Part shown: positions 7,647-33,312 of the stretch, piece by piece
Layout: each line of letters starts with the position of its first letter
How positions within the stretch are numbered: position 1 is the first letter of the stretch
Assembly (NCBI GenBank): GCA_029572955.1
Contig: JAKPQE010000126.1
Span: 1-38,450, forward strand
Origin: Pseudomonadota bacterium
Lineage (GTDB): Bacteria > Pseudomonadota > Alphaproteobacteria > Rhizobiales > JAKPQE01
Reading direction: 5' to 3'
Length of the DNA stretch: 38,450 nt
The notes under the pieces: generated by a model
Told to the model about the DNA's origin: nothing
Database searches by the model: none
What the model saw: only the letters and a program-made list of their open reading frames with translations
Made by a program: the position numbers and the translations under genes

Positions 7647-7695
7647 ACACCACCTCGATGCCGGCCATCGCCAAATCACCGCCACCACACCGATA

Positions 7696-7723: not shown

Positions 7724-7745
7724 GAAAATGACGTCATTTTCATTT
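7720..7745. promoter_or_regulatory. 26-bp perfect palindrome, probable TetR operator
   Basis: The half-site AAATGAAAATGAC (7720-7732) is followed without a gap by its exact reverse complement (7733-7745), with the centre at AC|GT. A 26-bp perfect palindrome is long for a TetR site and may bind two dimers. It covers the -10/+1 region of the ligase promoter and ends 12 nt before the start codon. It is strikingly AT-rich against its surroundings. Binding by the divergent regulator is inferred from position. Confidence 0.8.
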
Positions 7746-7757
7746 ATGAGGCCGACC

Positions 7758-17905: not shown

Positions 17906-18685
17906 ATGGCGGCACGCAAACCCAAGCTCGCGGTCTGGAAGTTCTCGTCCTGCGACGGCTGCCAGCTCAACCTGCTCGACTGCGAGGACGAGCTTCTGGC
18001 GATCGCCGATTCGATCGAGATCGCCGAATTCCTCGAGGCGACGCGGGCCCAGGTGCGCGGCCCCTACGACGTCTCCCTCGTCGAGGGCTCGATCTCCAAC
18101 GACCACGACGCCGAGCGCCTGCGCAAGATCCGCAAGCAGTCGAAGCTCGTCATCGCCATCGGCGCCTGCGCCACCGGCGGCGGCATCCAGGCGCTGCGCA
18201 ACGGCCGCGACGTCGACGAGTTCGTGCGCACGGTCTACGCCCATCCCGAATTCATCGACACCCTCGCCACCTCGACGCCGATCACCGACCACATCCCGGT
18301 CGACTTCGAGCTGCGCGGCTGCCCCGTCAGCAAATACCAGCTCCTCGAGGTGGTCTCGGCGCTGCTCGCCGGCCGCCAGCCGCGCGTTCCGCGCCATTCC
18401 GAATGTCTCGAATGCAAGATGCGCGGCACCGTCTGCGTCATGGTTGCCAGGGGCCAGCCCTGCCTCGGCCCGGTGACCCAGGCCGGTTGCGGCAATCTCT
18501 GCCCCTCGGTCGAGCGCGGCTGCTACGGCTGCTTCGGCCCGAAGGAGAGCCCGAACACGGCGAGCCTCGCCGACCGCTTCCTCGCCACCGGCAGCCAACG
18601 GCGCCGTGTCCGCGAGATGTTCCAGAGCTTCAACGCCGCTGCGCCCGCTTTCGCAAAGGAGGCCGAACGTCATGAGCCGCGTTGA
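17906..18685 (+). CDS. [NiFe]-hydrogenase group 3b small subunit
   Basis: This 259-residue small subunit carries the Fe-S relay next to the Ni-Fe site. The proximal cluster ligands begin with C16 and C19 (SSCDGCQLN) and include GACATGG and [10 protein letters not shown]. The C-terminal part has [12 protein letters not shown] and later QAGCGNLCP and [10 protein letters not shown], which would hold two more clusters. There is no Tat signal, consistent with a cytoplasmic enzyme rather than a group 1 uptake hydrogenase. Its stop overlaps the large-subunit start by 14 nt. The family match is to sulfhydrogenase delta/HyhS proteins. Confidence 0.93.
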
Positions 18686-19997: not shown

Positions 19998-20001
19998 CGC
20001 C

Positions 20002-20430
20002 GTGCTGGTCATCGGCGTCGGCAACCGCCTGCGCGGCGACGACGCCGCCGGGCCGATCGTCGCCGAACGCCTCGCCGAAATGGGCATCGCCGCGATCGAG
20101 CGCGACGGCGACGGCACGCGGCTTCTCGAGACGATGGAAGGCGCCGACGAAATCGTCATCGTCGACGCCATGCGCTCCGGCGCGGCGCCCGGCACGATCC
20201 GGCGTATCGACGCCGTCCGCGAGCCGGTACCGGCCGGCGCCTTTCACTATTCGAGCCATGCCTTCGGCGTCGCCGAGGCGATCGAGACCGCCCGGGCGAT
20301 CGGCATCCTGCCGGCCCGTCTCGTGCTTTACGGCATCGAGGGCGCGCGCTTCGACTTCGGCGCCCCGGTCGACGCCGCGGTCGCCGAGGCCATCGCCGGC
20401 GTCGTTTCCGAGATCGTCGGCAGGGACTGA
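20002..20430 (+). CDS. Hydrogenase maturation endopeptidase (HycI/HyaD family)
   Basis: This 142-residue protease trims the C-terminus of the large subunit after nickel insertion. The N-terminal VIGVGNRLRGDDAAGP carries the conserved Asp-Asp region. VIVDAMRSG supplies the second metal-binding acid, and SSHAFGV the conserved His. The start is a GTG at 20002, 4 nt after the large-subunit stop. It closes the operon. Its last 103 nt are overlapped by the convergent LysE-type gene, and no terminator stands between them. Confidence 0.92.
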   Translation: MLVIGVGNRLRGDDAAGPIVAERLAEMGIAAIERDGDGTRLLETMEGADEIVIVDAMRSGAAPGTIRRIDAVREPVPAGAFHYSSHAFGVAEAIETARAIGILPARLVLYGIEGARFDFGAPVDAAVAEAIAGVVSEIVGRD

Positions 20431-21056
20431 CCGGCACCGCGGCCGAAATCCGCGAGAACCGGCAGCATCGAGCCGACCAGCAACACCGCCATCGTCACGT
20501 TGAAGGCGCGGCAATAGGCCGGCCGCTGCAGGAAACGCCCGAGCACCGCGCCGAGGGCGAGCCAGGGCAGACAGCCGACCGTCGCGGCGAGAATGAAGAC
20601 CGCGCCGAAAAAGGCGCCCTGTGTAAGGGCGCTGCTGTCCTCGTTCATGTAGGCCGAGATGACGGCGGTCGCGATCAGCCATGCCTTCGGATTGATCCAC
20701 TGGAAAAGCGCGGCGCCGAAGAAAGTCCCGCGCCGGTCGATCTCGGCCGGGCCGGCACCCGCGCCGGACGCCGTGACCGGGGCAGAGCCGATCTGCCAGG
20801 CGAGCCAGAGGAGAAACAGGATGCCGGCGATCTTGATCGCCTCGGTGACGAGGTCGAGCCGCATGATCGTCTCGCCGAAGCCGACCGCGAGGAGAAAGAT
20901 CATCACCGCGAAGCCGAAGGCGATGCCCCACAGGGTCGGCAATCCCCGCCGCACGCCGACGGCGCTGCCGACCGCCGTCAGCAGCACGTTGTTGGGGCCG
21001 GGGGTGACCGATGCGACGAACGCGAAAACACCGATTGCTATGAGCTGCTCAAACAT
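20328..21056 (-). CDS. LysE/RhtB-family amino-acid exporter
   Basis: This 242-residue inner-membrane exporter has five to six hydrophobic segments. The family hallmark is near the N-terminus: FVASVTPGPNNVLL, then GLPTLWGIAFGF and later FQWINPKAWLIATAVIS. Family members export lysine, homoserine, threonine, cysteine or similar amino acids. The normal domain ends at about residue 206. The remaining 35 or so residues (after LPVLADFG) are Ser/Thr/Ala-rich and are encoded by the strand opposite the hydrogenase endopeptidase, so they look like read-through into antisense sequence. The ATG at 21056 starts right at the first membrane segment; an ATG at 21164 would add 36 unlikely residues. Confidence 0.88.
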   Translation of the reverse strand: MFEQLIAIGVFAFVASVTPGPNNVLLTAVGSAVGVRRGLPTLWGIAFGFAVMIFLLAVGFGETIMRLDLVTEAIKIAGILFLLWLAWQIGSAPVTASGAGAGPAEIDRRGTFFGAALFQWINPKAWLIATAVISAYMNEDSSALTQGAFFGAVFILAATVGCLPWLALGAVLGRFLQRPAYCRAFNVTMAVLLVGSMLPVLADFGRGAGQSLPTISETTPAMASATAASTGAPKSKRAPSMP

Positions 21057-21114
21057 CGACCCCGCCCCGCCTTGGGAGTTCCGACCCGATCCGATTCCGC
21101 CACGCCCAAGACGA

Positions 21115-21152
21115 GCACTACCACTTATACGGGTGGTGCGGACCCGTGAAAA
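21115..21152 (-). promoter_or_regulatory. Promoter with imperfect dyad upstream of the LysE-type gene
   Basis: On the minus strand TTTTCA (21152-21147), 17 bp and TATAAG (21129-21124) make a fair sigma70 promoter about 65 nt before the start codon. An imperfect inverted repeat (GCACTACC at 21115-21122 against GGTGGTGC at 21132-21139) straddles the -10 box. LysE-type genes are often controlled by a LysR or Lrp regulator, but none is encoded nearby. Confidence 0.4.
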
Positions 21153-21206
21153 TTCAGGGAGCAAGATCGCGATGCGGCGCTTCCCGGGCCGTGCCGGACG
21201 GGTCGC

Positions 21207-21878
21207 TCAGTCCGCGGCCGGCCGGCGCATTGTCGCCAGCATCGAATAGCCGCGCCGCAGCGCCCTGACCTCGAGTTCACAGCCGTGCTCGGCGGCGATT
21301 TCCTCGAGCGCCCAGACGATCTGCCCGGCCCGCGGCTCGACATGGAACCAGGCGAGCCAGCGCGTCAGCCCGGAGCGGAAGAAGCCCGGCAGGTCGGCCA
21401 GCGTGCCGAAATCGACGACATGGAGGCTGCCGCCGGGCGCGAGGCAATCGACCATGTTGTCGAGCGCCGCCCGCCAGTCCGGGATCATCGACAGCGTGTA
21501 GGAGAAGTAGATCCGCTCGAAGCCGTCGACGCCGAAAGCGCGGCGCGGGTCGGCCTCCGTCGCGTCGCCATGGGCGAGGCGCACCGTCCCGGCAACGCCG
21601 TGGCGCGCCACCGAGGCCGCCGCCGAGCGCAGCATTTCGAGGGAAATGTCGAAGCCGTGCACCGCGGCGGCCGGATAGCGCCGGGCCACCGCGACGAGGT
21701 TGCGCCCGGTGCCGCAGCCGACCTCAAGCACCCGCCCGCCCGCCGGCGGCAGGAGCTCGGCGATCAGCCGGTCGCGATCGAGCAGGTAGTATTTCCGCGT
21801 CGCATCGTAGATGTGGCGCTGGTAGCGGTAGACGCGGTCCATCAGCGCCTGATGGCCGGGCGCGGCGAGGTCGGTCAT
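21207..21878 (-). CDS. btaB: S-adenosylmethionine N-methyltransferase of betaine-lipid synthesis (BtaB)
   Basis: This 223-residue class I methyltransferase has motif I VLEVGCGTGRNL, the acidic loop FDISLEML and motif IV-like FSYTLSMIPDW. In bacteria BtaB adds three methyl groups to the amino-carboxypropyl head group made by BtaA, giving diacylglyceryl-trimethylhomoserine (DGTS). The assignment rests mainly on the 4-nt overlap with the preceding btaA gene and on the 'YQRHIYDATRKYYLLDRD' N-terminus, which I associate with this family. GGAAGG lies just before the ATG. No terminator is visible downstream. Confidence 0.88.
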   Translation of the reverse strand: MTDLAAPGHQALMDRVYRYQRHIYDATRKYYLLDRDRLIAELLPPAGGRVLEVGCGTGRNLVAVARRYPAAAVHGFDISLEMLRSAAASVARHGVAGTVRLAHGDATEADPRRAFGVDGFERIYFSYTLSMIPDWRAALDNMVDCLAPGGSLHVVDFGTLADLPGFFRSGLTRWLAWFHVEPRAGQIVWALEEIAAEHGCELEVRALRRGYSMLATMRRPAAD

Positions 21879-23110
21879 TGCCCGCCTTCCTTCAGCCGGT
21901 AGAGATGGAAGCCGCCATAGATGCCCGAGCGGTCGCGCGCATGGCCGGTGGCCGAGCCCTCCGCGTCGTAGTGCCAGCGGCTGAGGATCTCGTCCGGAAC
22001 GCGGCCGGGCAGAAGGTCCGGCTCGGCCGCCGTGCGGAAGACGACCCGCGCCCCCGGCCGCGCCGTGCGGGTGATCTCGGCCCACAGCGCGCCGAGCTGG
22101 GCGTCGCTCATCCAGTCCTGCGCGTCGAGCAGCACCACCCGGTCGACGCTCCCCTCCGCCTCGCCGGCGAGGAACTCGGTCATCGAGCGATGCAGCACCG
22201 CGACGCGATCCGCCGTCTCGCGCAGCGTGTCGAAATGCCAGGCCTCGAGATAGGGCGGCAGCGTCGAGCCGTAGGTGCGGCCGAACGCCTGGTGGGCGAA
22301 ATAGTTGGTCGAGAGATCGAAATCGCAGGCGAGACGGCGCAAGCGCTCGAGCAGCACGTCGGCCATGTGCCGGCCGCCGGCGAGCGCGGCGTACTGCGCC
22401 GGCGGAATGCCGAGGCCGTAGAGCGAGATGGTGCGCCCGACCAGCCAGCGCAGGAAGCCGCGCTGGAACAGCGGCGCGATCTCGCGGTCGAAGATCTCGC
22501 GCTGCTCGGCCATCGTCGTCGCCGTCAGCATGATCCGCGGATCGACGCCATAGGCGCGCGCGACGAGATGGGCAAGGCCGATGAACCGGCCGAGCAGCCC
22601 GTGCTCGTAGATGTTGCCGGCGAACATGCCGATCCGCCGGTTGCCGAAGCGCCGCGCCTCCCAGAAGTCGCGGGCACTCGGATCGAGCCGGTCGGCGAGA
22701 TGGCGGTCATAGGCGGTGATGTTCTCGACCCGGTCGGGATCGGCGAAAAACCTCGCGAAGCTCGCATGGTCGGGCAGCGCCGAGGCGGCCGCGAGCTTCA
22801 GGCGCGTCAGCGCCACATGGGCCGGATTGAGGTCGACCGCGGTGATCCGCGCCGGCCGCGCCGTCAGGTAGGAAAGCACGTTGCAGCCGCCCGAGGCGAT
22901 GGTCACCACGTGGCTCTCCGGCCCGATGTCGAGGGCATCCATGTCGGCTTCCGGGTCTTCCCAGATCTGGGCGTAGACGAGACCGGAGAAGGCGAGCGCG
23001 AAGAGATGGTCGAAAAGCCCCTCGCGCGAGGCGATCGACCCGGCACCGACGGCGGCGCGCAGGCGCTCGGCGGTTTCGCGCTTGGTGGAAATGGCAATGG
23101 CGTCCGACAA
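21875..23110 (-). CDS. btaA: S-adenosylmethionine:diacylglycerol 3-amino-3-carboxypropyltransferase (BtaA)
   Basis: This 411-residue DUF3419/BtaA protein transfers the 3-amino-3-carboxypropyl group of SAM to diacylglycerol, the first step of DGTS betaine-lipid synthesis at the inner membrane. Recognisable blocks are FALAFSGLVYAQIWEDPEAD near residue 40, the SAM-binding TIASGGCNVLSYL, AVDLNPAHVAL, and the C-terminal VLLDAQDWMSDAQL. The start is a TTG at 23110 with AGGAG 6 nt upstream. Known homologues in Rhodobacter and Sinorhizobium are induced by phosphate starvation through PhoB, replacing phospholipids. A candidate Pho box lies 68-85 nt upstream of this start. Confidence 0.93.
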   Translation of the reverse strand: MSDAIAISTKRETAERLRAAVGAGSIASREGLFDHLFALAFSGLVYAQIWEDPEADMDALDIGPESHVVTIASGGCNVLSYLTARPARITAVDLNPAHVALTRLKLAAASALPDHASFARFFADPDRVENITAYDRHLADRLDPSARDFWEARRFGNRRIGMFAGNIYEHGLLGRFIGLAHLVARAYGVDPRIMLTATTMAEQREIFDREIAPLFQRGFLRWLVGRTISLYGLGIPPAQYAALAGGRHMADVLLERLRRLACDFDLSTNYFAHQAFGRTYGSTLPPYLEAWHFDTLRETADRVAVLHRSMTEFLAGEAEGSVDRVVLLDAQDWMSDAQLGALWAEITRTARPGARVVFRTAAEPDLLPGRVPDEILSRWHYDAEGSATGHARDRSGIYGGFHLYRLKEGGQ

Positions 23111-23177
23111 ATTCCGCTCCTTGGCTCATGCGAGAGACCCGGGAATCAACCCGATCGGAAGCGGATAGCGGTGCTTG

Positions 23178-23195
23178 GTGAAACTGGCGTGACAG
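23178..23195 (-). promoter_or_regulatory. Candidate Pho box upstream of btaA
   Basis: On the minus strand, CTGTCAC, 4 nt, GTTTCAC forms two 7-bp units 11 bp apart. This is the layout of PhoB sites (consensus CTGTCAT-N4-CTGTCAT). The first unit matches 6/7 and the second 4/7. The position, 68-85 nt before the btaA start codon, suits activation. No other Pho box was noticed nearby. Confidence 0.5.
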
Positions 23196-23275
23196 TCCGG
23201 CCTCCGGCAAAGCCGGGACGCTTCACGGCGACGCCGCCGAGCGAGTCCGGCGCATCGACGGACGGCCGTGAGGCG

Positions 23276-24235
23276 CTACGCCCGGCGCCGCCGATCGATC
23301 ATGTCGGCCATCACGCACAGGAGCTCGAACATCATCGTCGCCCCGACGAGGGCGGTCATGCCGCCGACGTCGAACGGCGGCGCCACCTCGACGACATCGG
23401 CCCCGACGATGTTCACGCCGCCGAGCAGCCGCACCATCTCCTGGGACTCGCGGGTCGTGAGCCCGCCGATCTCCGGCGTACCGGTGCCGGGCGCCATCGA
23501 CGGGTCGATCGCGTCGACGTCGAAGGTGACGTAGGTCGCCCCGTCGCCGACGATAGCCCGCGCCTCGGCCATCACCTCGGCGGCGCCACGACGGACGAAC
23601 TCTTCCATATAGACGATGCGGATACCCTGGGCCCTGGCCCAATCGTGCTCGCCCGGATCGTAGACCGAGCCGCGGATGCCGATCTGGATCACGCGCCCGG
23701 GATCGAGCAGTCCCTCCTCGATGGCACGGCGGAAAGGCGTGCCGTGGGTGTAGGGGTTGCCGCCGAAATAGGTGTCGTTGGTGTCGGAATGGGCGTCGAA
23801 ATGGATCAGGCCGACGGGCCCGTCCTTCGCGACGGCGCGCAGGACCGGGAGCGTGACGAGATGATCGCCGCCGACCGACAGCGGCAGCGCGCCGGCCGCC
23901 ACGATCCCGGCCATCGCCGTCTCGATCCGCGCCAGCGCATCGCCGAGATCGATCGGATTGACCGGGAGGTCGCCGACGTCGGCGACATTGGCGACGGCGA
24001 ACGGCGCGACCCCGGAGACGTGATGGGCACGCCGCATCAGGCTCGACTGGTTGCGCACCTCGCGCGGGCCGTGGCGGGCGCCGGCGCGATTGGTGGTACC
24101 GCCGTCCCAGGGAATGCCGACGAGCGCGATGTCGAGGCCTTCGGCCGAGGCGACCGCCGGCAGCCGCATGAAGGTGGCGTGGCCGGCGAAGCGCGGCACT
24201 TCGGCGGCGTCGACCGGCTGATGATAGGTCGTCAT
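23276..24235 (-). CDS. Agmatinase/guanidinobutyrase-family ureohydrolase
   Basis: This 319-residue binuclear-metal (Mn or Ni) hydrolase should cleave a guanidino group to urea and an amine. All metal ligands are present: H125 (GGDHLVTLPVLR), D147, H149 and D151 (HFDAHSDT), D239 and D241 (TFDVDAIDPSMAPGTGTPE). The last block followed by IGGLTTRE is typical of agmatinase, guanidinobutyrase and guanidinopropionase rather than arginase. The substrate loop (YFGGNPYTHGTPFRRAIEEG) gives no firm choice. It overlaps the creatininase-like gene by 4 nt and is the last gene of the seven-gene operon. In context it might hydrolyse creatine or another guanidino acid produced by the upstream amidohydrolase. 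That is inference. The ATG at 24235 is favoured by the overlap. Confidence 0.9.
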   Translation of the reverse strand: MTTYHQPVDAAEVPRFAGHATFMRLPAVASAEGLDIALVGIPWDGGTTNRAGARHGPREVRNQSSLMRRAHHVSGVAPFAVANVADVGDLPVNPIDLGDALARIETAMAGIVAAGALPLSVGGDHLVTLPVLRAVAKDGPVGLIHFDAHSDTNDTYFGGNPYTHGTPFRRAIEEGLLDPGRVIQIGIRGSVYDPGEHDWARAQGIRIVYMEEFVRRGAAEVMAEARAIVGDGATYVTFDVDAIDPSMAPGTGTPEIGGLTTRESQEMVRLLGGVNIVGADVVEVAPPFDVGGMTALVGATMMFELLCVMADMIDRRRRA

Positions 24236-25017
24236 GTCCGTGGTCCCCGGGAGAATTCGCGTTCGATGGCGGCGATCATGCCCGCCTCGCTGTCGGCGAG
24301 GAGCCATTCGCCCTTTTCGGCCGACGAGCCTTCGGTCATCGACAGCACGCCCGAAGGCGGCACCTCGTCACAGGGCTTGGGAAAGCGGTCATAGGGCAGG
24401 AAGGCGGCCGGGCCGTCGTCGGTGGCCCTGGAGAGATCGACGAGGTCGGGGCGCAGCGCCAGCATCATCGAGGTCTCGAGGACCGAGGCATGCTCGAGCT
24501 CGATGCCCGGGAAGCCCTCGGGGAAGATGCGGTCGAGCGTTGCCGGCTGCACCATTTCCCAATGGTCGATGCGCAGGATGACGAGTCCGTCGGTGCGGTC
24601 GCGGCCGATCGCGTCGAGCGCCAGCTCGATCCCCTCGATGGTCGGCCCGATATTCTCGAAATGGCCGTTCACCGTGACGATCTTGCGGACCTTCTGGCGA
24701 TGGAGTTCGCAGATGATGTCGCGCACGATCAGCGCGAAAGTGTGGGCCGCGAGGTTCAGCGTGCCGGGGAAGCCCGGCCCGCCGCCGGTCCGGGGCTGCG
24801 AACGATTGCCGTAGGCGACCGCCGGCAGCACCAGCCCGCCGACCTTGCGGGCGACGCGCTCGGCGACGCCCGTCGGCAGCACCACGTCGACATTCAGCGC
24901 CATGTGGCGGCCGTGCTGCTCGGTCGCCCCGAGCGGCAGGAAGACCGGCGCGCCCTCGGCGATCCGGGCCTCGACCTCGGGCCAGGGCAGTTCGGCATAA
25001 AAAACGGTGTCGGTCAT
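24232..25017 (-). CDS. Creatininase-family amidohydrolase, close to true creatininase
   Basis: This 261-residue, normally hexameric metal-dependent amidohydrolase would open a cyclic amide such as creatinine to creatine. Ligands E33, H35 and D44 (LGATEQHGRHMALNVDVVLPT region), H119 and E121 (VNGHFENI) are present. The glycine-rich loop GGGPGFPGT and the C-terminal EKGEWLL resemble Pseudomonas creatininase as I remember it. The active-site tryptophan corresponding to Trp154 is kept (W153). The second gating tryptophan (Trp174 there) appears as I172 in PGIELEHAS. The substrate may therefore be creatinine or a related cyclic guanidino compound. Neighbours are a ureohydrolase (4-nt overlap) and two dehydrogenases. 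The family also includes MftE and inosose hydrolases, which are less similar by eye. Confidence 0.87.
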   Translation of the reverse strand: MTDTVFYAELPWPEVEARIAEGAPVFLPLGATEQHGRHMALNVDVVLPTGVAERVARKVGGLVLPAVAYGNRSQPRTGGGPGFPGTLNLAAHTFALIVRDIICELHRQKVRKIVTVNGHFENIGPTIEGIELALDAIGRDRTDGLVILRIDHWEMVQPATLDRIFPEGFPGIELEHASVLETSMMLALRPDLVDLSRATDDGPAAFLPYDRFPKPCDEVPPSGVLSMTEGSSAEKGEWLLADSEAGMIAAIEREFSRGPRT

Positions 25018-25027
25018 CGGGAGTCCA

Positions 25028-25735
25028 TCAGGTCATTGCGGCGCCGCCATTGGCGCCAAGGCATTGTCCGGCAAAGAAGGTCGCACCGGGTCCGGCAAGG
25101 AAGACGACCGCCGCCGCCACCTCTTCCGGGCGGCCGATGCGGCCCATCGGATTGGCCGTCTCCTCGGCCTTCTGGGCATCGGTCAGCCGGTCGAACGCCA
25201 GCAGCGGCGTATCCGTCGGCCCCGGCGCCACGGCGTTGACGAGGATGCGGGGCGACAGCTCGCGCGCCCACGACCGGGTCACGCCGATCATCGCCGCCTT
25301 CGTCCCGGCATAGACCGAGGCCCCGGCGCGGCCGAGATAGGCAAGCTCGGAGACGATGTTGATGATCCGCCCGCCGTCGGACAGATGCGGCAAGGCCTCG
25401 CGCGCCGTCAGGATCGCGCCGCGCACGTTGATCGCGAACATCCGGTCGATATGGGCGGCGGTGAGCTCGGCGAGCGGCACCTCTTCGAAGATGCCGGCAT
25501 TGTTGACGAGAATGTCGAGACCGCCGAGACGCCCGGCCGCCTCCGCCACGGCGGCGACGACGTCGCCCTCCGCCGCGAGATCGCAGGCAAGGATCGCGAA
25601 GCCCGCCTCGCCCGGCCGCAGGTCGAGGCCGACCACCGCGGCGCCGGCGTCCAGCAGGGCGCGGGCCGTTGCCAGGCCGATGCCGCTGGCGGCGCCGGTG
25701 ACGAGCGCCCGCTTGCCCGAGAGCGGCTTCACCAC
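25028..25735 (-). CDS. Short-chain dehydrogenase/reductase (first of two)
   Basis: This 235-residue classical SDR oxidoreductase has the NAD(P)-binding motif TGAASGIGLA, NNAG, catalytic Ser in IVSELAY and the YAGTK Tyr/Lys pair. The cofactor loop VVGLDLRPGE has Asp after the second strand, which favours NAD(H). It would oxidise a hydroxyl or reduce a ketone of the imported compound or an intermediate. It lies 10 nt upstream of the creatininase-like gene and overlaps the second SDR by 7 nt, so it is clearly co-transcribed. It is not a duplicate of its neighbour: the two differ throughout, so they probably catalyse different steps. Confidence 0.9.
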   Translation of the reverse strand: MVKPLSGKRALVTGAASGIGLATARALLDAGAAVVGLDLRPGEAGFAILACDLAAEGDVVAAVAEAAGRLGGLDILVNNAGIFEEVPLAELTAAHIDRMFAINVRGAILTAREALPHLSDGGRIINIVSELAYLGRAGASVYAGTKAAMIGVTRSWARELSPRILVNAVAPGPTDTPLLAFDRLTDAQKAEETANPMGRIGRPEEVAAAVVFLAGPGATFFAGQCLGANGGAAMT

Positions 25736-26484
25736 GGCACCTCTCCCCGATCGACGCCGAGCGACTGCCCGGTGATGTTGGCGGCGAGGTCGGAACCGAG
25801 GAACAGGTAGGTCGCCGCCATGTCGGCCGGCTCCATCAGCCCCGGCAACGCCTGCCCCGCCACGATCCGGTCGAGGAGGGCGCTTTCGGGTTCGCCCGCC
25901 GCCGCCGCCATCCGGCCGAGCGAGCGCATCGAGGCCTCGGTGTGGACCCAGCCGGGACAGACCGCGTTGACGCGGATGCCGCGCGGGCCGAGTTCGCGGG
26001 CCCAGGTCTTGGTGAGGCCGATGATCGCGTGCTTGGAAGCGACATAGGCGCCGAAGCCGGGCTCGGCGACCCGCCCCCAGATCGAGGCGGTGTTGATGAT
26101 GGCGCCGCCCCGGCCCATGCGGTCGAGCGCCGTCGCGGTGACGAGCGCCGTACCGACGACATTGATGTCGATCACCCGGCGGAAGGCGTCGGTGACCGCG
26201 TCCGAAGCGTCGGCGATCGGCGTCATCAGTTCGAGGCCGGCATTGTTGACGAGGACGTCGATCCGCTCGAGCGGCGCGAGGGCCGCGACAACCTCGGCCT
26301 TGTCGGCGATGTCGGCGAGCGCCGCCGTCGCGCCGAGCTCGGCGGCGCGCGCATGCACGGCCTCGTCGTTGGCGATCAGGTGCAGCCTCGCCCCCGCGGC
26401 GGCGAAACCTTCGGCGATGCCGAGGCCGATGCCGCGGCTCGATCCGGTGACGACGACGGTCCGGCCGGCATAGCCGATCTGCAT
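25729..26484 (-). CDS. Short-chain dehydrogenase/reductase (second of two)
   Basis: This 251-residue classical SDR has TGSSRGIGLG, NNAG, catalytic Ser in NTASIWG and the YVASK pair, then PGWVHTE. The dinucleotide loop (LHLIANDEAVHAR) lacks a clear Asp, so NADP(H) use is possible. The 1-nt TGATG overlap with the ABC ATPase gene means it follows the importer genes directly in the operon. With the other SDR it suggests that the substrate carries hydroxyl or keto groups in addition to a guanidino or cyclic amide. The function is inferred from the family only. Confidence 0.9.
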   Translation of the reverse strand: MQIGYAGRTVVVTGSSRGIGLGIAEGFAAAGARLHLIANDEAVHARAAELGATAALADIADKAEVVAALAPLERIDVLVNNAGLELMTPIADASDAVTDAFRRVIDINVVGTALVTATALDRMGRGGAIINTASIWGRVAEPGFGAYVASKHAIIGLTKTWARELGPRGIRVNAVCPGWVHTEASMRSLGRMAAAAGEPESALLDRIVAGQALPGLMEPADMAATYLFLGSDLAANITGQSLGVDRGEVPW

Positions 26485-27269
26485 CAGAGCCTCCCCTCCT
26501 CGCGCATCATCCGCATGATCTTGCGCTCGAGTTCGCTGTAGCCGGCAAGCGCGATCAGCTCTTCCTTGTTGCGCAGCCGCGTCGCCGGCTTGAAGTCGGG
26601 GACGATCTCTTCCTTCACCCGGCCCGGATGACTCGACAGGAAGACGATCCTGTCGGCAAGGAAGATCGCCTCCTCGATGTCGTGGGTGACGAGGATCATC
26701 GTCGTCCCCGCGGCCTCGGCGACGGCGATCATCAGTTCCTGCATCTGCCAGCGGGTTTCCGCGTCGAGCGCCCCGAAAGGCTCGTCCATCAGCAGCACCT
26801 CGGGCGCGTTGGCGAGGGTGCGGGCGATGGCGACGCGCTGGCGCATGCCGCCGGAAAGGCGCGAGGGATAGGTGTCGATGAATTTCGTGAGACCGACGAG
26901 GCCGATGAAATGGGCGGCGCGCTCGCGCCGTTCCTTGGCCGGGACGCCGTTGATCTTCATCCCGAACTCGACGTTCTTGCCGACCGACATCCAGTCGAAC
27001 GACGAATAGGCCTGGAACACCATGCCGCGATCGCGCCCCGGGCCGTGGATATCGGCTCCCTTGAGGCGAATCGTCCCCGAGGTCTGGTTCTCGAGGCCCG
27101 CGATCATCCTGAGGATCGTCGACTTGCCGCTGCCCGACGGGCCGAGCAGGACGCAGATCGACCCCTTCTCGACCGAGAAGGACACGTCCTCGACCGCCAG
27201 CAGCTCCTTGCCGTGCGGCAGATCGTAGATCTTCGAGACGTTGTCGATGGTCAGCAGCGCCTCGCCCAT
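26484..27269 (-). CDS. NitT/TauT-family ABC transporter ATPase
   Basis: This 261-residue cytoplasmic ATPase is of the SsuB/TauB/NrtD type. Walker A is GPSGSGKST, the Q-loop FQAYSSFDWMSV, the signature LSGGMRQRVAIARTL, Walker B LLMDEPFGALD and the H-loop VTHDIEEAI. All motifs are intact. The ATG at 27269 overlaps the permease stop by 1 nt (TGATG). It powers the adjacent permease to import the operon's substrate. The length is normal. Confidence 0.93.
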   Translation of the reverse strand: MGEALLTIDNVSKIYDLPHGKELLAVEDVSFSVEKGSICVLLGPSGSGKSTILRMIAGLENQTSGTIRLKGADIHGPGRDRGMVFQAYSSFDWMSVGKNVEFGMKINGVPAKERRERAAHFIGLVGLTKFIDTYPSRLSGGMRQRVAIARTLANAPEVLLMDEPFGALDAETRWQMQELMIAVAEAAGTTMILVTHDIEEAIFLADRIVFLSSHPGRVKEEIVPDFKPATRLRNKEELIALAGYSELERKIMRMMREEGRL

Positions 27270-28084
27270 CACCGCGTCCCCTGCAGATAAGGAAACAGGC
27301 GCCGGTGCAGCGCGGCGAAGATCATGTCGAAGACGAGACCGAGCGCCCCGATCACGATGATGCCGGCAAGAATCTCGTCGGTGTGCAGGAAGCGGCGCGC
27401 CCGCATCATCATCGCGCCGATGCCCGTCGTCGAGGCGACGATCTCGGCGATCACGAGATAGGTCCAGACCACCGCCAGCATCTGCCGCATGGCGACGATG
27501 ACGTTGGGCAGCACGGCGGGCAGCATGACCTGGAACACCGTGACCCGCCGGTTCGCGCCGAGGGTCAGGGCGGTCTCGATCAGCTCCTTGCGGATCTCCT
27601 TGGTGTGATCGGCAATGAGGGTGATGAGAAAGAAGATCACCCCGAGGAACAGCAGCGCGAGCTTCGGCGCCTCGCCGGTGCCGAACCACATCAGCAGGAT
27701 CGGAATGAAGGAAGGTGCCGGCAGGTAGCGCCAGGCCGAGACGAAGGGCGAGAAGATGGCGTCGATCGCCGGAAAGGCGCCCATCGCGACGCCGAGCGGC
27801 ACGGCAACGAGAGAGGCAAGGGCAAAGGCCGCGAGCACCCGCGCGATCGAAATCAGGACGTCCGCGCCGAAACCCTGATCGGTGAACAGCCGGACGGTCG
27901 TGCCGAAGACATCGACCGGCGACGGCACGAGGATCGGGTTCACCCAGCCCATCGCCGTTGCGGCGATCCAGACAGCGAAAAAGGCGATCCAGATGGCGAA
28001 GGCGGAGATCAGGATCTGCCGGCGCGAGACCGGTGTCCGCACCTTGAGGAACCGGGAATTGCGCCCCGTGGCCACCTTCGACAT
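27269..28084 (-). CDS. NitT/TauT-family ABC transporter permease
   Basis: This 271-residue inner-membrane permease has about six transmembrane helices and a BPD-type coupling motif (IETALTLGANRRVTVFQVMLPAVLPNV), typical of SsuC/TauC. The N-terminal 20 residues are basic and cytoplasmic. The ATG at 28084 is chosen because GGAGGAG stands 6 nt upstream. It is separated from the binding-protein gene by a 62-nt gap with a perfect stem-loop. By family such transporters import sulfonates, nitrate, thiamine precursors, pyrimidines or guanidino-type compounds. Confidence 0.93.
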   Translation of the reverse strand: MSKVATGRNSRFLKVRTPVSRRQILISAFAIWIAFFAVWIAATAMGWVNPILVPSPVDVFGTTVRLFTDQGFGADVLISIARVLAAFALASLVAVPLGVAMGAFPAIDAIFSPFVSAWRYLPAPSFIPILLMWFGTGEAPKLALLFLGVIFFLITLIADHTKEIRKELIETALTLGANRRVTVFQVMLPAVLPNVIVAMRQMLAVVWTYLVIAEIVASTTGIGAMMMRARRFLHTDEILAGIIVIGALGLVFDMIFAALHRRLFPYLQGTR

Positions 28085-28102
28085 GCGCAGCTCCTCCGAA
28101 TG

Positions 28103-28124
28103 CCCCACGGCCGTGGCCGTGGGG
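28103..28124 (-). other. Intercistronic stem-loop between binding-protein and permease genes
   Basis: CCCCACGGC (28103-28111) pairs perfectly with GCCGTGGGG (28116-28124) around a CGTG loop (or CACG on the coding strand). It lies 22 nt past the binding-protein stop and just before the permease ribosome-binding site. There is no T-run, so it is probably a 3' stabiliser or partial attenuator that raises binding-protein output. Confidence 0.7.
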
Positions 28125-28146
28125 TCTGACGCAGGATAATCGGCGA

Positions 28147-29205
28147 TCAGTTCGCCGAGAAGGACTGGCGGTAGCCCTGCGCCACGAGGTCGGCCATCAG
28201 GCTGCAGTCGATGCCGGCGGCCGGATCGATCTTCTTGGTCATGAGGCCGAGCTTGACCCACCAGTCGTTGGTCAGGGCCACCGAGCCCGGCATCGAGCCG
28301 TTCGGCAGGCCGAATGGCGGATTGCCTTCGAGCACGCCGCAGGTGCGGGCGGATTCGTCGAAGTCGAAGACGTAGATGCCGCCCTCGAGGCTCTTGCCGT
28401 CGGTGCCGATGACGGACGCCACATCGTCGACCGGCCACTGCAGGTAGTCGGCGATCAGCTTGTTGGTCTCCTCGACATTGCTATGCCAGTAGCCGCGCGC
28501 ATCCCATTCGGCCTTGAGCACGGCGAGCGCGGCGGGCCGCCGCTTGGCGATGAAGTCCTTGTTCATGAACAGGGAGTCCATGAAGATGCCGGTCTTCAGC
28601 ATGTCCGGATCGGTGGTGTTGACCACCGACTTGGCGCCCGGCGCGGCCTCGAGCACCTTGGAGATCCAGGGCTCGTACATGTAGGCGGCGGCAAGATCGC
28701 CCGACAGCATCGGCCCGACGGCCTCGTCGGCGTTGAGGTTGACCCAGGTGACGTCGCCGGGGGCGATGCCCTCGCGGTCGAGCCAGAGGCCCATCAGGAG
28801 CTGCCCGATATAGGCCTGCGGCGCGGCGACCTTCTTGCCCTTGAGATCGGCGGGCGTCGTGCCGGCCGCGAGGATGACGTGATCGACGCCATAGGACGGA
28901 TTGAGGTAGGCGACGTTCACCTCGTTGAGCTCGGAGGCGACCGCGACCGGGATGTAGTCGGCGGTGCAGCCATAGACATCGATCTGCCCCGCCGCGAGGG
29001 CCGCATGGCCGCCGAGCGGATCTTCGAAATTGGTGATCTTCAGATCGTAGTCGGCGATCAGGTTCTTCTCCTGGGCGATTTCCAGCATCGCATAGCCGGG
29101 CCAGGACACACAGATACCGACATTGATCGTCTCCTTGGCCGAGACGGCGCCCGAGGTCAGGGCGGCGGAAGCGGCGAGAGACAGGGCAAGAGCGAGTTTG
29201 CGCAT
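28147..29205 (-). CDS. NitT/TauT-family ABC transporter periplasmic substrate-binding protein
   Basis: This 352-residue NMT1/SsuA/THI5-like binding protein has a Sec signal peptide (MRKLALALSLAASAALTSGAVSA, cut before KETINVG). The mature fold reads NVGICVSWPGYAMLEIAQEK, then GQIDVYGCTADY and YLNPSYGVDHVILAA, with later APQAYIGQLLMGLWLDREG. It would deliver the operon's substrate to the permease. It is the first gene of the catabolic operon, with GGGAGCC just upstream of the ATG, and is divergent from a TetR gene. The ligand is unknown. The rest of the operon suggests a guanidino compound. Confidence 0.92.
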   Translation of the reverse strand: MRKLALALSLAASAALTSGAVSAKETINVGICVSWPGYAMLEIAQEKNLIADYDLKITNFEDPLGGHAALAAGQIDVYGCTADYIPVAVASELNEVNVAYLNPSYGVDHVILAAGTTPADLKGKKVAAPQAYIGQLLMGLWLDREGIAPGDVTWVNLNADEAVGPMLSGDLAAAYMYEPWISKVLEAAPGAKSVVNTTDPDMLKTGIFMDSLFMNKDFIAKRRPAALAVLKAEWDARGYWHSNVEETNKLIADYLQWPVDDVASVIGTDGKSLEGGIYVFDFDESARTCGVLEGNPPFGLPNGSMPGSVALTNDWWVKLGLMTKKIDPAAGIDCSLMADLVAQGYRQSFSAN

Positions 29206-29245
29206 GGAAGGCTCCCTGGAGAGGTTGTGAAAAAACTATATCGAG

Positions 29246-29289
29246 CTAAAACTTTTAGTCTACAAAAAATTTTGCAGGACAAAATTTGT
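29246..29289. promoter_or_regulatory. Three short palindromes between the catabolic operon and tetR
   Basis: In a very AT-rich 120-bp divergent region lie CTAAAA-C-TTTTAG (29246-29258), CAAAA-AA-TTTTG (29263-29274) and ACAAA-A-TTTGT (29279-29289). The first lies between a -35-like TTGTAG and a -10-like TATAGT reading towards the binding-protein gene on the minus strand. They are candidate operators for the divergent TetR protein; which one is used is unknown. Confidence 0.55.
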
Positions 29290-29290
29290 G

Positions 29291-29318
29291 TTGCAATCGC
29301 GCTTCGTCGACTTATCTT
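29291..29318 (+). promoter_or_regulatory. Promoter of the divergent tetR gene
   Basis: TTGCAA (29291-29296), a 16-bp spacer and TATCTT (29313-29318) form a fair sigma70 promoter. Its start point would fall at about 29325, on or beside the ATG at 29326. No ribosome-binding site precedes that ATG, so a leaderless mRNA is predicted. Confidence 0.45.
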
Positions 29319-29325
29319 CCGACCC

Positions 29326-29961
29326 ATGTCCGAAGCACGGCCAATCAGCCTCAGGGAACGGCAGAAGGAGGACCGGCGGGCACGCATCACCGCCGCCGCC
29401 AGGCGTCTCTTCGTCGAGGCCGGCCTCGAGAAGATCACCATCGAGGCGATCGCCGAGATCGCCGGCGTCTCCAGCGTGACCGTCTACAACTATTACGGAA
29501 CCAAGTCCGGCGTGCTCCTGGCGCTCGTCGCGGAAAGCGACCGCGAACTCCTCGGCACGCTCGCGCGGGACCTGATCGGCAAGCCGCAGGAGGTCGTCGA
29601 TCTCGTCCTCCGCTTTTTCGAGATCATCTGCCGCCATGCCCTCGACCATCTCGATAAGGCGGTCTGGCGCCAGGTCATTTCGGCCTCCGTCTCGGGCACC
29701 GAGCCGCGCTTCGGCAAGTCGTATCACGAGCTCGACAACCGCCTCGCCAACGTCCTCATCCGCGAGGTCGAGCGCTTGAAGGCGATCGGCAAGGTGCCCG
29801 CGACGAGCGACGCGACCCATCTCGGCTGGGCGCTGTTCAATCTCCAGAACGCCCGCTTCGTCGAGTTCATCGCCTCGGACGATGTCCACCCCAATCAGAT
29901 TCTGCGCCATCTGCGGAACGATCTGGAGGCGCTGATGCCGCGCCCCGCGCCCCGCGACTGA
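29326..29961 (+). CDS. TetR-family regulator of the guanidino-compound operon
   Basis: This 211-residue TetR-type regulator has a basic N-terminus (SLRERQKEDRRARITAAARRLF). The helix-turn-helix follows at about residues 32-56: ITIEAIAEIAGVSSVTVYNYY. The C-terminal domain is helical, with KAVWRQVISASVSG and LGWALFNLQNARFVEF. It is divergent from the binding-protein gene with 120 bp between them, so repression of the catabolic operon and itself, relieved by a substrate or intermediate, is the simple model. The stop codon lies inside the first unit of a 23-bp tandem repeat, so the last residues (PRPAPRD) could be affected by repeat expansion. Confidence 0.9.
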   Translation: MSEARPISLRERQKEDRRARITAAARRLFVEAGLEKITIEAIAEIAGVSSVTVYNYYGTKSGVLLALVAESDRELLGTLARDLIGKPQEVVDLVLRFFEIICRHALDHLDKAVWRQVISASVSGTEPRFGKSYHELDNRLANVLIREVERLKAIGKVPATSDATHLGWALFNLQNARFVEFIASDDVHPNQILRHLRNDLEALMPRPAPRD

Positions 29962-30035
29962 TCGGCCGCGGCACTCCCCGCTGATCGGGCGCGGCACCCC
30001 CTGCTGATCGGGCCCGGCACTCCCCGCTGCCCGAG
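29958..30035. repeat. Three-copy 23-bp tandem repeat at the tetR 3' end
   Basis: Units begin at 29958, 29981 and 30004, each starting CTGATCGG(C/G) and continuing with a GGCAC core and a C-run, followed by a partial fourth unit at 30027. The first unit contains the tetR stop codon. Copies differ at two to four positions. The repeat marks the left edge of the gene-poor, AT-richer segment. Confidence 0.75.
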
Positions 30036-30841
30036 AAACCCCGCCCCGTTGGCGTACCGCCGAGCGCACGCAAGGCCGACTGGCCGCCGGCCGACGAGGC
30101 CGCCCCGGCGGAGCTGACGAGCATAGCGAATTCGCGTGAAAAATGGCGGTGGACGCAGCCTGTTGCGAACCAGTCTCTGTCTTTTGGTAACAGGAGAACG
30201 AAACGCGGGGGGCGTTCGTCGAGTTCTTACCGGTTTTCCCCTTGCTTCCTGCGTCTTGCCATCTATGCCAAAACATCTCGCCAATCGCGGCATCGCTGAA
30301 ACAGGCGAATTCGTTGCCGTTCAGCGGGATTTGATTGTCGCTATCCGGGATCGGCGTGCCTAAAAACGGGATGTCGCGGCGTTAGGACGGGACGGCTTTG
30401 CCGACAGGCGGGCGGGAGATGCTGTTTCCCAGGCAAGGATTGCGCTTTTCCGGACAGGTTTTGTGGTTTGTCGAGGAAGACGGCTGTTGCCGCCTCGGGG
30501 GCGACGATTTTCCACCCGATCGGTCGGGCAACACGCCGTGACGACGTGGTCGAGCCCGAAGTGTGACGCGAAGCCGGAGATCCGAATCGGTCGGCGATTT
30601 GGCAGATTTCGCGGATCTCAGATTCTCGCCGGCACGGGTTTTCCACAGCCCTTCGAAAGCCAGAATTCTTCGAAGTACCTTCGAAGGGGGCTCGAAGGGG
30701 TTTCGAAAAGGTTTTCCCAGATAAAGTTGCAGTCCCCTTGTTCTGCTTGATTTTCCATCTGTTTTTTCTCCAGCCTCGATGAGATCGACAGCCGCGGCGC
30801 GCTGTCTGTCGCTCACTTTGAGACACGTGGAGAGAAGTCCC
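29962..30841. other. 880-bp interval without a credible gene
   Basis: Base composition is less GC-rich than the flanks, and no reading frame on either strand shows a recognisable protein. From left to right it holds the 23-bp tandem repeat and an AT-rich patch with a bulged dyad around 30190-30212. It then holds an undistinguished stretch, an 11-bp-phased TTCGAA array at 30669-30712, a T-rich patch at 30745-30770 and a 6-bp dyad GACAGC-N8-GCTGTC (30787-30806) just before the methylase start. It may be degraded sequence at the edge of an acquired segment plus the methylase control region. Confidence 0.5.
30669..30712. repeat. Four 11-bp units led by TTCGAA, helically phased
   Basis: TTCGAA (or CTCGAA in one unit) begins at 30669, 30680, 30691 and 30702, exactly 11 bp apart. 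The remaining five bases are mostly G-rich in the middle units. A fifth TTCGAA stands at 30652 but is out of phase. An 11-bp period puts each site on nearly the same face of the helix, as in arrays bound by a cooperative protein. It lies 130-173 bp upstream of the ParB-like/methylase gene. Confidence 0.6.
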
Positions 30842-32299
30842 ATGACCACCCGCCAGCCCGAGATCGAGATGCGGTCGGTGTTGTCGTTGCGGCCCTATGC
30901 GGGCAATGCGCGGCAGCACTCGAAGGCACAAGTGTGCCAGATTGCCGAGAGCATCCGCCGCTTCGGCTTCACCAACCCTGTGCTGATCAGCGACGACGGC
31001 GAGATCGTCGCCGGCCACGGCCGGGTGATGGCGGCAAGGGAACTCGGCATCACCGAGGTGCCGACCCTGAAGCTATCGCATCTGACGGCTGCGGAACGGC
31101 GGGCATACGTCCTTGCCGACAACAAGCTCGCACTCAACGCCGGTTGGGACACCGAGGTCCTGGCGATCGAGCTGCAGGCCCTCATCGATCTCGAATTCGA
31201 CGTGTCGCTGACCGGCTTCTCGCTGGCCGAGATCGACTTTGTGCTTGATGGAGCCCGTAACGCCTCGACAGACGCCTCGGACGAAGCGGACTGGCTGCCG
31301 GACATGCCCGAATATTCGGTGTCCCAGCCGGGCGATCTCTGGGTCCTGGGTCGTCATCGTCTCTTGTGCGGTGATGCCCGATCGCTGCCGGATGTGGAGC
31401 GGCTGATGGATGGTGCACGGGCCGACCTCGTCTTCACCGATCCGCCCTACAATGTGCCGATCGACGGCCATGTCTGCGGCCTCGGCGCGGTCCGGCATCG
31501 CGACTTCGCCATGGCCGCAGGCGAGATGTCGACGTCGGAGTTCACCGCTTTCCTGACGGAGACGCTCGGCAATGCTGCGGATGGCTGTCGCGATGGTGCA
31601 ATCGCCTTCATCTGCATGGACTGGCGCCACATGGGCGAGTTGCTCGGCGCCGGCAAGGCTGTCTTCTCAGAGCTGAAAAACCTCTGCGTCTGGAACAAGA
31701 GCAATGGCGGCATGGGGACTTTCTATCGCTCCAAGCACGAACTCGTATTCGTCTTCAAGGTCGGCACCGCGCCCCATACCAACACATTCGGCCTCGGCGA
31801 AACCGGGCGCTACCGCACCAATGTCTGGGACTATGCCGGCATCAGCAGTCTCGGGCCCGAGCGCGCCGAGAGCCTTGCCATGCACCCGACGGTCAAGCCC
31901 GTCGCCCTCGTTGCCGATGCCATCAAGGACTGCAGCCGCCGCGGCGACATTGTGCTCGATGTCTTTGCCGGTTCGGGTTCGACGCTGATTGCCGCCGAGA
32001 GCTGCGGACGGGGGGCCTCTCTCCTCGAATATGATCCCGCCTATTGCGACGTGATCATTGCGCGCTGGCAGCGCCTCACCGGCAAGCAGGCTGTTCTCGA
32101 ACATTGTGGCAAGCCCTTCGACGACGTCGCCGAGGAGCGAGGCCTACCGCCGCGAGAGAGGCTCGGCAGCACCAAGCACCGACGGAGCAAGACCGCCGCG
32201 TCCCGGCGACCCGGCGCCAGGGCCTCGCAAGGCCAGCAGAAGCCCCCGCACACTGTCTCCAGTACCCTCGATAGCCTCGGCGCGGAGGCGGATCGATGA
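30842..32299 (+). CDS. ParB-like nuclease domain/DNA methyltransferase fusion (N4/N6 type)
   Basis: This 485-residue fusion has a ParB/Srx-like domain at about residues 8-100. Its landmarks are LRPYAGNARQHSKAQVCQIA, then FTNPVLISDDGEIVAGHGRV and LADNKLALNAGW. A beta-class amino-methyltransferase follows, with catalytic motif DPPY at residues 200-203 (FTDPPYNV), then WNKSNGGMGTFYRSKHE, HPTVKP and the SAM-binding motif FAGSGSTLIAAE. The C-terminal 50 residues are basic and disordered. By family it makes N6-methyladenine or N4-methylcytosine; the recognition sequence is not predictable. GGAGAG precedes the ATG. It overlaps the DUF5681 gene by 4 nt. Without a cognate endonuclease here it would act as an orphan methylase, as often seen on prophages and islands. 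Confidence 0.9.
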   Translation: MTTRQPEIEMRSVLSLRPYAGNARQHSKAQVCQIAESIRRFGFTNPVLISDDGEIVAGHGRVMAARELGITEVPTLKLSHLTAAERRAYVLADNKLALNAGWDTEVLAIELQALIDLEFDVSLTGFSLAEIDFVLDGARNASTDASDEADWLPDMPEYSVSQPGDLWVLGRHRLLCGDARSLPDVERLMDGARADLVFTDPPYNVPIDGHVCGLGAVRHRDFAMAAGEMSTSEFTAFLTETLGNAADGCRDGAIAFICMDWRHMGELLGAGKAVFSELKNLCVWNKSNGGMGTFYRSKHELVFVFKVGTAPHTNTFGLGETGRYRTNVWDYAGISSLGPERAESLAMHPTVKPVALVADAIKDCSRRGDIVLDVFAGSGSTLIAAESCGRGASLLEYDPAYCDVIIARWQRLTGKQAVLEHCGKPFDDVAEERGLPPRERLGSTKHRRSKTAASRRPGARASQGQQKPPHTVSSTLDSLGAEADR

Positions 32300-33312
32300 G
32301 CAACGATCACGCGCACATGGACGACGGGACCCCGTCCGCCAGGCCGACAACTTCTCTTTCCAAAGACGACATGGCTGCCATCATTAGAAAGACCGTCATC
32401 GACGACAGCGGTCCAATGAGCCGAGGCCGGGACGGCCGGTTCCGCAAGGGCCAGTCGGGCAATCCCAAGGGGCGGCCGCCGCGTGAAGCCGAGCCCGATA
32501 TTCGAATACATCACCAGACGACCAAGGCACGTCTCCTCGAAGAACTGCGCCGCCCGATTCAGGTCCGCGAGAATGGCCGCACCGTCGAGATGTCGGTCGA
32601 CCAGGCTCTGATCCGTGCTGAGATAGCAGGCGCGCTGAAAGGCAATGCCTATGCCCAACGCCACCTTCATGACCGGATCGAGCGCCTGGAGCGCGAAGAA
32701 GCCATCGAGATTGCGAGGCAGAACGCCGTGTTCCTCGAATATCAAGCCCGTTGTCGTGCTGAAATCGAAACCGCAAAGCAGCGGGGCGAACCTCTGCCGA
32801 ACCCAGTCCCCCACCCGGACGACATCGTCATCGAGGACGGAAAGCGGGTCCGCTTCATCGGCCCAGTAGATGAGACGGAGGTGGCGAAGTGCGAGCGAGA
32901 TTGTCGAGTTCGCGACACGCTCCTCATGCAGGACTCCCTCGACGAGCGGTCCTACGATCAATCATCGGCGCATGCCCCCGAGGATCAGCCGGGATCGGCG
33001 ATGCTCCTCGCCGTCGCCCTCGACAAGACCTTGCCGCCGCGCCTTCGGCTGAGCGAGGCGGCCATGACGGTCGCGTATTCGCGCCATGATGCAACGCCGA
33101 AACGGGTCCTCCTGAAGAAGCTCTACCGAGCCTGGCGGAGCCTTGGCTACCGCGTCGAACGCGGACGGACCTTCCCGCCGCTCGCCATTGTCGAAGCAAG
33201 GCTGCGGACGATCTTCGGCATCGTCGCGACGATCCAGCGGCGCGGCGTCGACCCGGCCGAACTCACGCCGGCTGACATCACCGAGTTCCTCGAAGAGGTG
33301 ATGGACCGGTAG
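32296..33312 (+). CDS. DUF5681-domain protein
   Basis: This 338-residue protein has the DUF5681 signature at about residues 42-62 (GRDGRFRKGQSGNPKGRPP). The family's function is not established. A charged helical middle part follows (ERLEREEAIEIARQ and surrounding residues), then a C-terminal region ending in DITEFLEEVMDR. The ATGA overlap with the methylase gene indicates co-translation. The basic GNPKGRPP element suggests nucleic-acid contact. A link to phage terminase small subunits has been considered for such proteins, but I see no terminase or other phage gene here. Composition is less GC-rich than most of the window, in line with horizontal acquisition. Confidence 0.82.
   Translation: MSNDHAHMDDGTPSARPTTSLSKDDMAAIIRKTVIDDSGPMSRGRDGRFRKGQSGNPKGRPPREAEPDIRIHHQTTKARLLEELRRPIQVRENGRTVEMSVDQALIRAEIAGALKGNAYAQRHLHDRIERLEREEAIEIARQNAVFLEYQARCRAEIETAKQRGEPLPNPVPHPDDIVIEDGKRVRFIGPVDETEVAKCERDCRVRDTLLMQDSLDERSYDQSSAHAPEDQPGSAMLLAVALDKTLPPRLRLSEAAMTVAYSRHDATPKRVLLKKLYRAWRSLGYRVERGRTFPPLAIVEARLRTIFGIVATIQRRGVDPAELTPADITEFLEEVMDR

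Follow-up and report, generated by a model that had tools for sequence, protein, structure and literature searches.

The classical creatinine pathway includes a creatininase-family hydrolase, an M24 creatinase, and sarcosine oxidase. In the three annotated plasmids compared (Shinella, Paracoccus, and Leisingera), the creatininase adjoins the M24 protein and a spermidine-type importer, which represents the ordinary arrangement. Catabolism of 3-guanidinopropionate in Pseudomonas aeruginosa relies on the ureohydrolase GpuA, and the gpuPAR genes of strain PAO1 are presumably not accompanied by short-chain dehydrogenases (SDRs), a cyclic amidohydrolase, or an ABC importer. In histidine utilisation, HutI opens an imidazolone-type ring, and the arginase-family enzyme HutG then cleaves the product. 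Here we analyzed an operon that combines features of such systems, located at positions 23276-29961 of contig JAKPQE010000126.1 of an alphaproteobacterial genome (assembly GCA_029572955.1); the whole analyzed stretch of 38,450 nucleotides is referred to as the window. It encodes a NitT/TauT-type importer, two SDRs, a creatininase-family hydrolase (CRN), and a ureohydrolase (UREO), with a divergent TetR-type regulator. The operon is real and conserved and, as far as our searches show, undescribed: among the matches listed, the open-licence literature contained no description of the operon or of the CRN-UREO pairing. We interpret it as an operon by which a small cyclic guanidino compound, distinct from creatinine, is scavenged as a source of nitrogen and carbon. 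The class of pathway is reasonably supported, and the pathway as proposed below could equally well prove right or wrong.

Compared with the classical creatinine pathway, the operon has SDRs and a ureohydrolase instead of creatinase and sarcosine oxidase, its importer is not of the spermidine type seen in those plasmids, and the Trp174 of creatininase is replaced. UREO is 67% identical to GpuA and retains its Tyr157, but its gene neighbors encode SDRs, a cyclic amidohydrolase, and the proteins of an ABC importer. The sequence of ring opening and cleavage by an arginase-family enzyme would resemble histidine utilisation, although the ring-opening enzyme belongs to a different family and UREO scored 133.5 bits against the hutG cut-off of 229. 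The guanidine hydrolase GdmH and metformin hydrolase are members of the same superfamily as UREO, with weaker similarity (about 88 bits for the metformin hydrolase subunits). Guanidine-riboswitch operons carry the riboswitch upstream, whereas in region 20000-32000 of the window all Rfam families, including the guanidine riboswitch, stayed below gathering score.

All the components named in the first-pass annotation, the importer, both SDRs, the creatininase-like hydrolase, the ureohydrolase, and the divergent TetR gene, were recovered by family searches. The seven minus-strand genes follow the order SBP (substrate-binding protein), permease, ATPase, SDR1, SDR2, CRN, and UREO, and the TetR gene is on the plus strand. 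They had been described as seven overlapping genes; the number is correct, while overlaps were found at four of the six junctions, with short gaps between SBP and the permease and between SDR2 and CRN. Since the mechanically predicted open reading frames of the permease, ATPase, and TetR begin too far upstream, starts at 28084, 27269, and 29326 were chosen. The features are as follows:

28147-29205, minus strand: SBP, NitT/TauT-type substrate-binding protein (Pfam NMT1_2/NMT1; SsuA_fam 89.5 bits, under the cut-off of 163.5)
27269-28084, minus strand: ABC permease (Pfam BPD_transp_1; chosen start ATG 28084)
26484-27269, minus strand: ABC ATPase (Pfam; chosen start ATG 27269)
25729-26484, minus strand: SDR1, classical short-chain dehydrogenase (Pfam; motifs TGSSRGIG and YxxxK; orthologs)
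25028-25735, minus strand: SDR2, classical short-chain dehydrogenase (Pfam; GTG start at 25735 or 25732; orthologs)
24232-25017, minus strand: CRN, creatininase-family metallohydrolase (PF02633 181 bits, cut-off 31.3; TIGR04448 312 bits; PDB matches; residues; tree)
23276-24235, minus strand: UREO, ureohydrolase of the 3-guanidinopropionase (GpuA) group (PF00491 318 bits; 3nip 479 bits; tree; Tyr157)
29326-29961, plus strand: divergent TetR-type regulator (TetR_N 43.5 bits; chosen start ATG 29326)

The best solved relatives of CRN are creatininases (PDB 1q3k/3a6e/1j2t), and it contains all five residues, E34, H36, D45, H120, and E122, which we take to be the dinuclear metal ligands of creatininase. 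Differences were found at two other sites, both in a loop that presumably takes part in substrate binding. Trp174, which is assumed to close over creatinine, is replaced by Ile, and Gly179-Gly180 by Ala and Ser. In a phylogenetic tree of 81 rows, CRN was placed in a clade of 51 rows (split support 97/91), 49 of them SDR-linked, and 10 creatininases adjoining an M24 creatinase gene grouped with the solved creatininase 1q3k (support 100/96). The residue aligned with Trp174 in the CRN clade is Ile (31 rows), Thr (12), Phe (5), Met (2), or Tyr (1), and never Trp, and positions 179-180 are occupied by Ala followed by Ser or Ala, whereas all 10 creatinase-linked enzymes retain both Trp174 and Gly-Gly. 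Trp174 is also present in 15 of the remaining 19 rows. No creatinase was detected within 6 kb of any member of the CRN clade, and neither an SDR nor a ureohydrolase within 6 kb of any of the 10 creatinase-linked creatininases, some of which are on short contigs. Metal ligands are kept in both clades with two exceptions: L118 has Asn instead of His120, and another row is gapped at three ligands. The L118 gene (Salipiger, 6965-7759, plus strand) belongs to an operon that otherwise appears intact.

Group labels were set manually on the basis of gene context, ahead of any reading of the residues. Seven loci were removed prior to tree construction, namely duplicate contigs (L087, L088, and L143-L145) and weak or partial CRN matches (L079 and L112), while near-copies, such as L058/L060 and L062/L069, were retained. 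Two clade rows carry no SDR label, namely L078, on a contig that begins about 320 bases upstream, and L077, in which the match begins at residue 32. As three rows labelled SDR are placed outside the clade, this labelling is imperfect.

Because CRN lacks the residue kept by the compared creatinine-pathway enzymes, its substrate is probably not creatinine, and the smaller residue at position 174 would suit a larger ring or one that differs from that of creatinine. The curated creatininase label would therefore cover a clade probably not acting on creatinine, for which position 174 offers a simple residue marker; an open-licence literature search for creatininase together with Trp174 returned nothing. 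Assignment of CRN to mycofactocin-type peptidases was rejected (78 bits against a cut-off of 172). The second creatininase-family gene of this genome (G000:C53:141973-142704) is MftE-like, with 125 bits against the same cut-off.

The arginase-family metal motifs GGDH, DAHSD, and DxDxxDP are located in UREO at residues 122, 147, and 239. Its best solved relative is the 3-guanidinopropionase GpuA (3nip), followed by guanidinobutyrase (3nio, 330 bits), and its score with the general agmatinase model of NCBIfam is likewise above the cut-off (199 bits against 174). In a tree of 78 rows, built by a quick search without bootstrap and containing long branches, UREO and GpuA fell within a 54-row group that excludes the guanidinobutyrase GbuA (Shimodaira-Hasegawa-like approximate likelihood ratio test, 96). 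In place of the Tyr157 shared by GpuA and UREO, GbuA has Met161, and these positions reportedly matter for specificity, a finding attributed to Lee et al. 2011.

Uptake of a compound followed by opening of a cyclic amide and release of urea, as put forward in the first-pass annotation, is supported most strongly by related operons in which the key enzymes are displaced; its substrate and reaction order are still matters of interpretation. Roseovarius sp. THAF9 encodes counterparts of the importer proteins (59%–66% identity), TetR (42%), UREO (55%), SDR1 (54%), and SDR2 (42%), along with a second ureohydrolase, UREOB. At the place of CRN it has a polysaccharide-deacetylase/PuuE-like protein, and no creatininase is annotated in this stretch. 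Locus L110 contains SDR1, UREO, UREOB, and SDR2 without a detected CRN, and its PuuE-like protein shares 66% identity with the THAF9 one. A similar displacement, with UREOB as the only ureohydrolase, was observed in L184 and L185; Shinella HZN7 and Gemmobacter fulvus carry sets of the type UREOB-SDR1-SDR2-PuuE-like. Conversely, L097 and L168 have no detected ureohydrolase within 8 kb, and SDR-SDR-CRN is accompanied there by an arginine-deiminase/DDAH-like protein. A P. aeruginosa plasmid encodes a GpuA homolog (87%) beside two oxidoreductases and a PuuE-like hydrolase, which represents another subtype, with about 30% identity. Past a regulator and a symporter, 3-4 kb further on, this plasmid has the start (80 residues) of an omega-aminotransferase-like gene, consistent with a beta-alanine product. 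CRN and the PuuE-like protein are not always alternatives, since both occur in L068. The PuuE-like proteins should be regarded as putative cyclic amidohydrolases because they scored 67-84 bits, far below the NCBIfam PuuE cut-off of 425. The swaps of both CRN and UREO by unrelated enzymes support a chemistry of cyclic amide opening followed by guanidino cleavage, probably acting on a substrate other than creatinine, and such swaps in otherwise similar operons provide a sharp handle on the substrate. UREOB was also considered as a guanidine hydrolase and rejected: its best solved match was the agmatinase 1wog (186 bits), compared with 125 bits for 7esr, which we take to be GdmH.

Scanning of GTDB-based genome contigs with CRN revealed 30 loci, 25 of which (L055-L079) showed at least 64% identity; L080-L084 (28%–30%) were excluded from the 25-locus count. 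The genera represented were Sinirhodobacter, Defluviimonas, Allgaiera, Thioclava, Rubellimicrobium, Hoeflea, Mesorhizobium, Shinella, and Rhizobium. The creatininase-ureohydrolase synteny to which the first-pass annotation had drawn attention was borne out across genomes: UREO adjoins CRN in 22 of the 25 loci, and a ureohydrolase is present at a distance of up to 6 kb in 37 of the 51 CRN-clade members. CRN has both SDRs as neighbors in 21 of the 25 loci, and in Alphaproteobacteria the set SDR-SDR-CRN-UREO is conserved. Because the context models were built from the window proteins and a few matches, they may overlook distant relatives. This genome contains two arginase-family and two creatininase-family matches in 3.76 Mb, and simple arithmetic gives a chance of about 0.6% for an arginase-family gene within 6 kb of CRN; given this expectation and the recurrence in 22 loci, the pairing is more than chance. 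In genome searches with CRN, matches at an E-value of 1e-40 were identified in 32 genomes among 397 from the order, and at 1e-50 in 11 among 398 from the phylum and 11 among 385 from the class; the genome of the window itself is counted here, as are ordinary creatininases. One locus (L057, 7997-9971, plus strand) carries an apparently decayed operon, in which the permease match is split into three and neither SDR2 nor a ureohydrolase was matched.

The NMT1-type SBP, BPD permease, and ATPase occur together, as in NitT/TauT importers. SBP is 73%–86% identical to nine aligned orthologs, and its AlphaFold model, based on 10 sequences, had a mean predicted local distance difference test score of 53. 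The permease is TauC-like, yet it scored under the TauC cut-off, and, among the matches listed, all ligand-specific importer models of NCBIfam were below their cut-offs. The TGSSRGIG and YxxxK sites of SDR1 were read as classical SDR motifs, on our assumption, and both SDRs gave only generic matches in NCBIfam and PDB searches. The window's genome, rated 98.7% complete and 3.6% contaminated, encodes the urease alpha subunit (997 bits, cut-off 680) and methylmalonate/malonate-semialdehyde dehydrogenase (665 bits, cut-off 448.5), so that urea and beta-alanine could be used by the host. Creatinase was not found in this genome (best match with 26% identity over 139 amino acids, E-value 2.4e-4), and the best soxB match was 58.6 bits against a cut-off of 529, other sarcosine-oxidising enzymes not having been sought. 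The earlier remark that the classical creatinase and sarcosine oxidase are not in the operon agrees with these searches.

The genes and their families, conservation, the CRN clade, active-site differences, and displacements were read from the sequences, and from them we infer the substrate, reaction order, products, and regulation. The importer would bring in a small cyclic guanidino compound. SDR1 and SDR2 could act on a cyclic hemiaminal, or on a guanidino alcohol or aldehyde, and oxidise it to a creatinine-like lactam (a cyclic acylguanidine), the ring of which would be opened by CRN, acting as a metal-dependent cyclic amidohydrolase, to give a short guanidino acid. UREO would then split off urea, leaving an amino acid. 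Since UREO is of the GpuA type, we hypothesize that the linear product is 3-guanidinopropionate and, hence, that CRN acts on a six-membered lactam. The most specific guess is that the lactam of 3-guanidinopropionate, 5,6-dihydroisocytosine, would be converted to 3-guanidinopropionate and further to beta-alanine and urea, the latter being available for urease. A hydroxylated cyclic guanidine, the substrate suggested earlier, is close to this model. It is rather unlikely that the complete undescribed pathway holds in every part, with the SDRs producing a cyclic acylguanidine, a re-purposed creatininase or PuuE-like enzyme opening it, a GpuA-type enzyme releasing urea and beta-alanine, and the whole clade mislabelled as creatininase. 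If our interpretation is right, it adds a route by which cyclic guanidino compounds are broken down in many Alphaproteobacteria from soil, roots, and aquatic habitats, and points to an overlooked guanidino metabolite in the environment.

Several observations weigh against this interpretation. CRN passes the NCBIfam creatininase equivalog model TIGR04448 (cut-off 235), and the difference at Trp174 represents one phylogenetic split rather than many independent events. For 14 of the 51 rows of the CRN clade, no ureohydrolase was detected within 6 kb, and only two of them have the DDAH-like enzyme. A Rieske oxygenase is encoded in six of the 51 loci, with a ureohydrolase in L091, L093, L164, and L166 and without it in L096 and L146. 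Other partners include an NtaA/DmoA-type monooxygenase in Salipiger and, in the same phylum but outside the class, a membrane protein of the desaturase type in L149 and an amidase of the isochorismatase type in L150. Since ureohydrolase-free members carry other partners, the SDR-SDR-CRN module may be used for several related rings, including those of non-guanidino compounds. The substrates of UREO may also vary because Tyr157 is replaced by Phe in two sequences of a sister subgroup (L092 and L095). UREO homologs with 74%–81% identity occur in other surroundings on four annotated plasmids (Rhizobium, Roseateles, Shinella, and Paracoccus). The role ascribed here to the two SDRs is a guess.

Side observations were made at two loci. 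In L096 (9266-12063, plus strand), SDR and CRN genes are followed by those for the Rieske oxygenase and an EutB-like ethanolamine ammonia-lyase. In L152 (1-1173, plus strand), an argininosuccinate-lyase-like gene (273.6 bits, cut-off 279.5) adjoins SDR-SDR-CRN and, judging by this similarity, may code for another guanidino-type enzyme.

An unlikely alternative, although the one that survives best, is that CRN acts on a lactam or, in the manner of IolN, on a cyclic diketone that the two SDRs produce, with the guanidino group being only a side group or UREO serving a separate supply of 3-guanidinopropionate. Several clade members (e.g., L118 and L147-L150) have SDR and CRN with no guanidino-cleaving enzyme detected, UREO homologs occur alone, and IolN, 3-dehydro-scyllo-inosose hydrolase, is a weak family match of CRN (81.7 bits). 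However, this score is far under the cut-off of 245, and to the members with a linked ureohydrolase, which prevail in the clade at 37 of 51, two more are added by another guanidino-type enzyme.

Still less probable is a creatinine route without creatinase, in which CRN would produce creatine and UREO would convert it to sarcosine and urea. It is favored by the TIGR04448 score of CRN and the absence of a detected creatinase from this genome, and creatine is an isomer of 3-guanidinopropionate. However, this route leaves both SDRs idle, and two features of one loop, Trp174 and Gly-Gly, are kept in all 10 creatinase-linked enzymes and replaced throughout the 51-row CRN clade. Human AGMAT, a guanidino-acid hydrolase, cleaves guanidino acids of intermediate chain length but did not cleave 10 mM creatine (PMC9772407). 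The proposal that a ureohydrolase replaces creatinase is thus weakened by the loss of Trp174 throughout the clade, the 3-guanidinopropionase type of UREO, and a soxB score under the cut-off.

An allantoin-like route, in which CRN or PuuE would open a guanidino-bearing hydantoin (e.g., a guanine oxidation product) and UREO would remove urea, is very improbable: PuuE-like hydrolases do replace or accompany CRN, one PuuE-like cluster includes an NCS1-type permease below the family cut-off, and an allantoate-amidohydrolase-type gene is located near a CRN relative (L177), but the PuuE cut-off is far above the scores of the PuuE-like proteins, short guanidino acids are the preferred substrates of GpuA-type ureohydrolases, and the SDRs would have no role.

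Upstream of the operon, a promoter-like site TAGACT-16-TATAGT was found at 29235-29262 on the minus strand, matching the consensus at 9 of 12 positions, with a mean of 0.0 such sites in shuffled sequences. A perfect inverted repeat, CTAAAA-G-TTTTAG (29246-29258), is located inside it and is a candidate TetR operator. The motif GACTAAA is present in all 11 aligned intergenic regions (the window and 10 loci), and the perfect repeat in the window alone. If the operon serves the scavenging of a cyclic guanidino compound, TetR would hold it repressed until the substrate is present.

Directly downstream of the operon, region 21207-23110 (minus strand) encodes a DUF3419 protein (372 bits) beside a methyltransferase, which presumably resemble the BtaA/BtaB betaine-lipid pair. 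A protein similar to the large subunit of nickel-dependent hydrogenases (PF00374, 91 bits) is encoded at 18606-19997 (plus strand), opposite to the operon. Just past the TetR gene, at 30779-33312 (plus strand), there are genes for a DNA N6/N4 methylase, the N-terminal part of which reads as ParB-like, and then a DUF5681 protein; this region may represent the edge of a mobile element.

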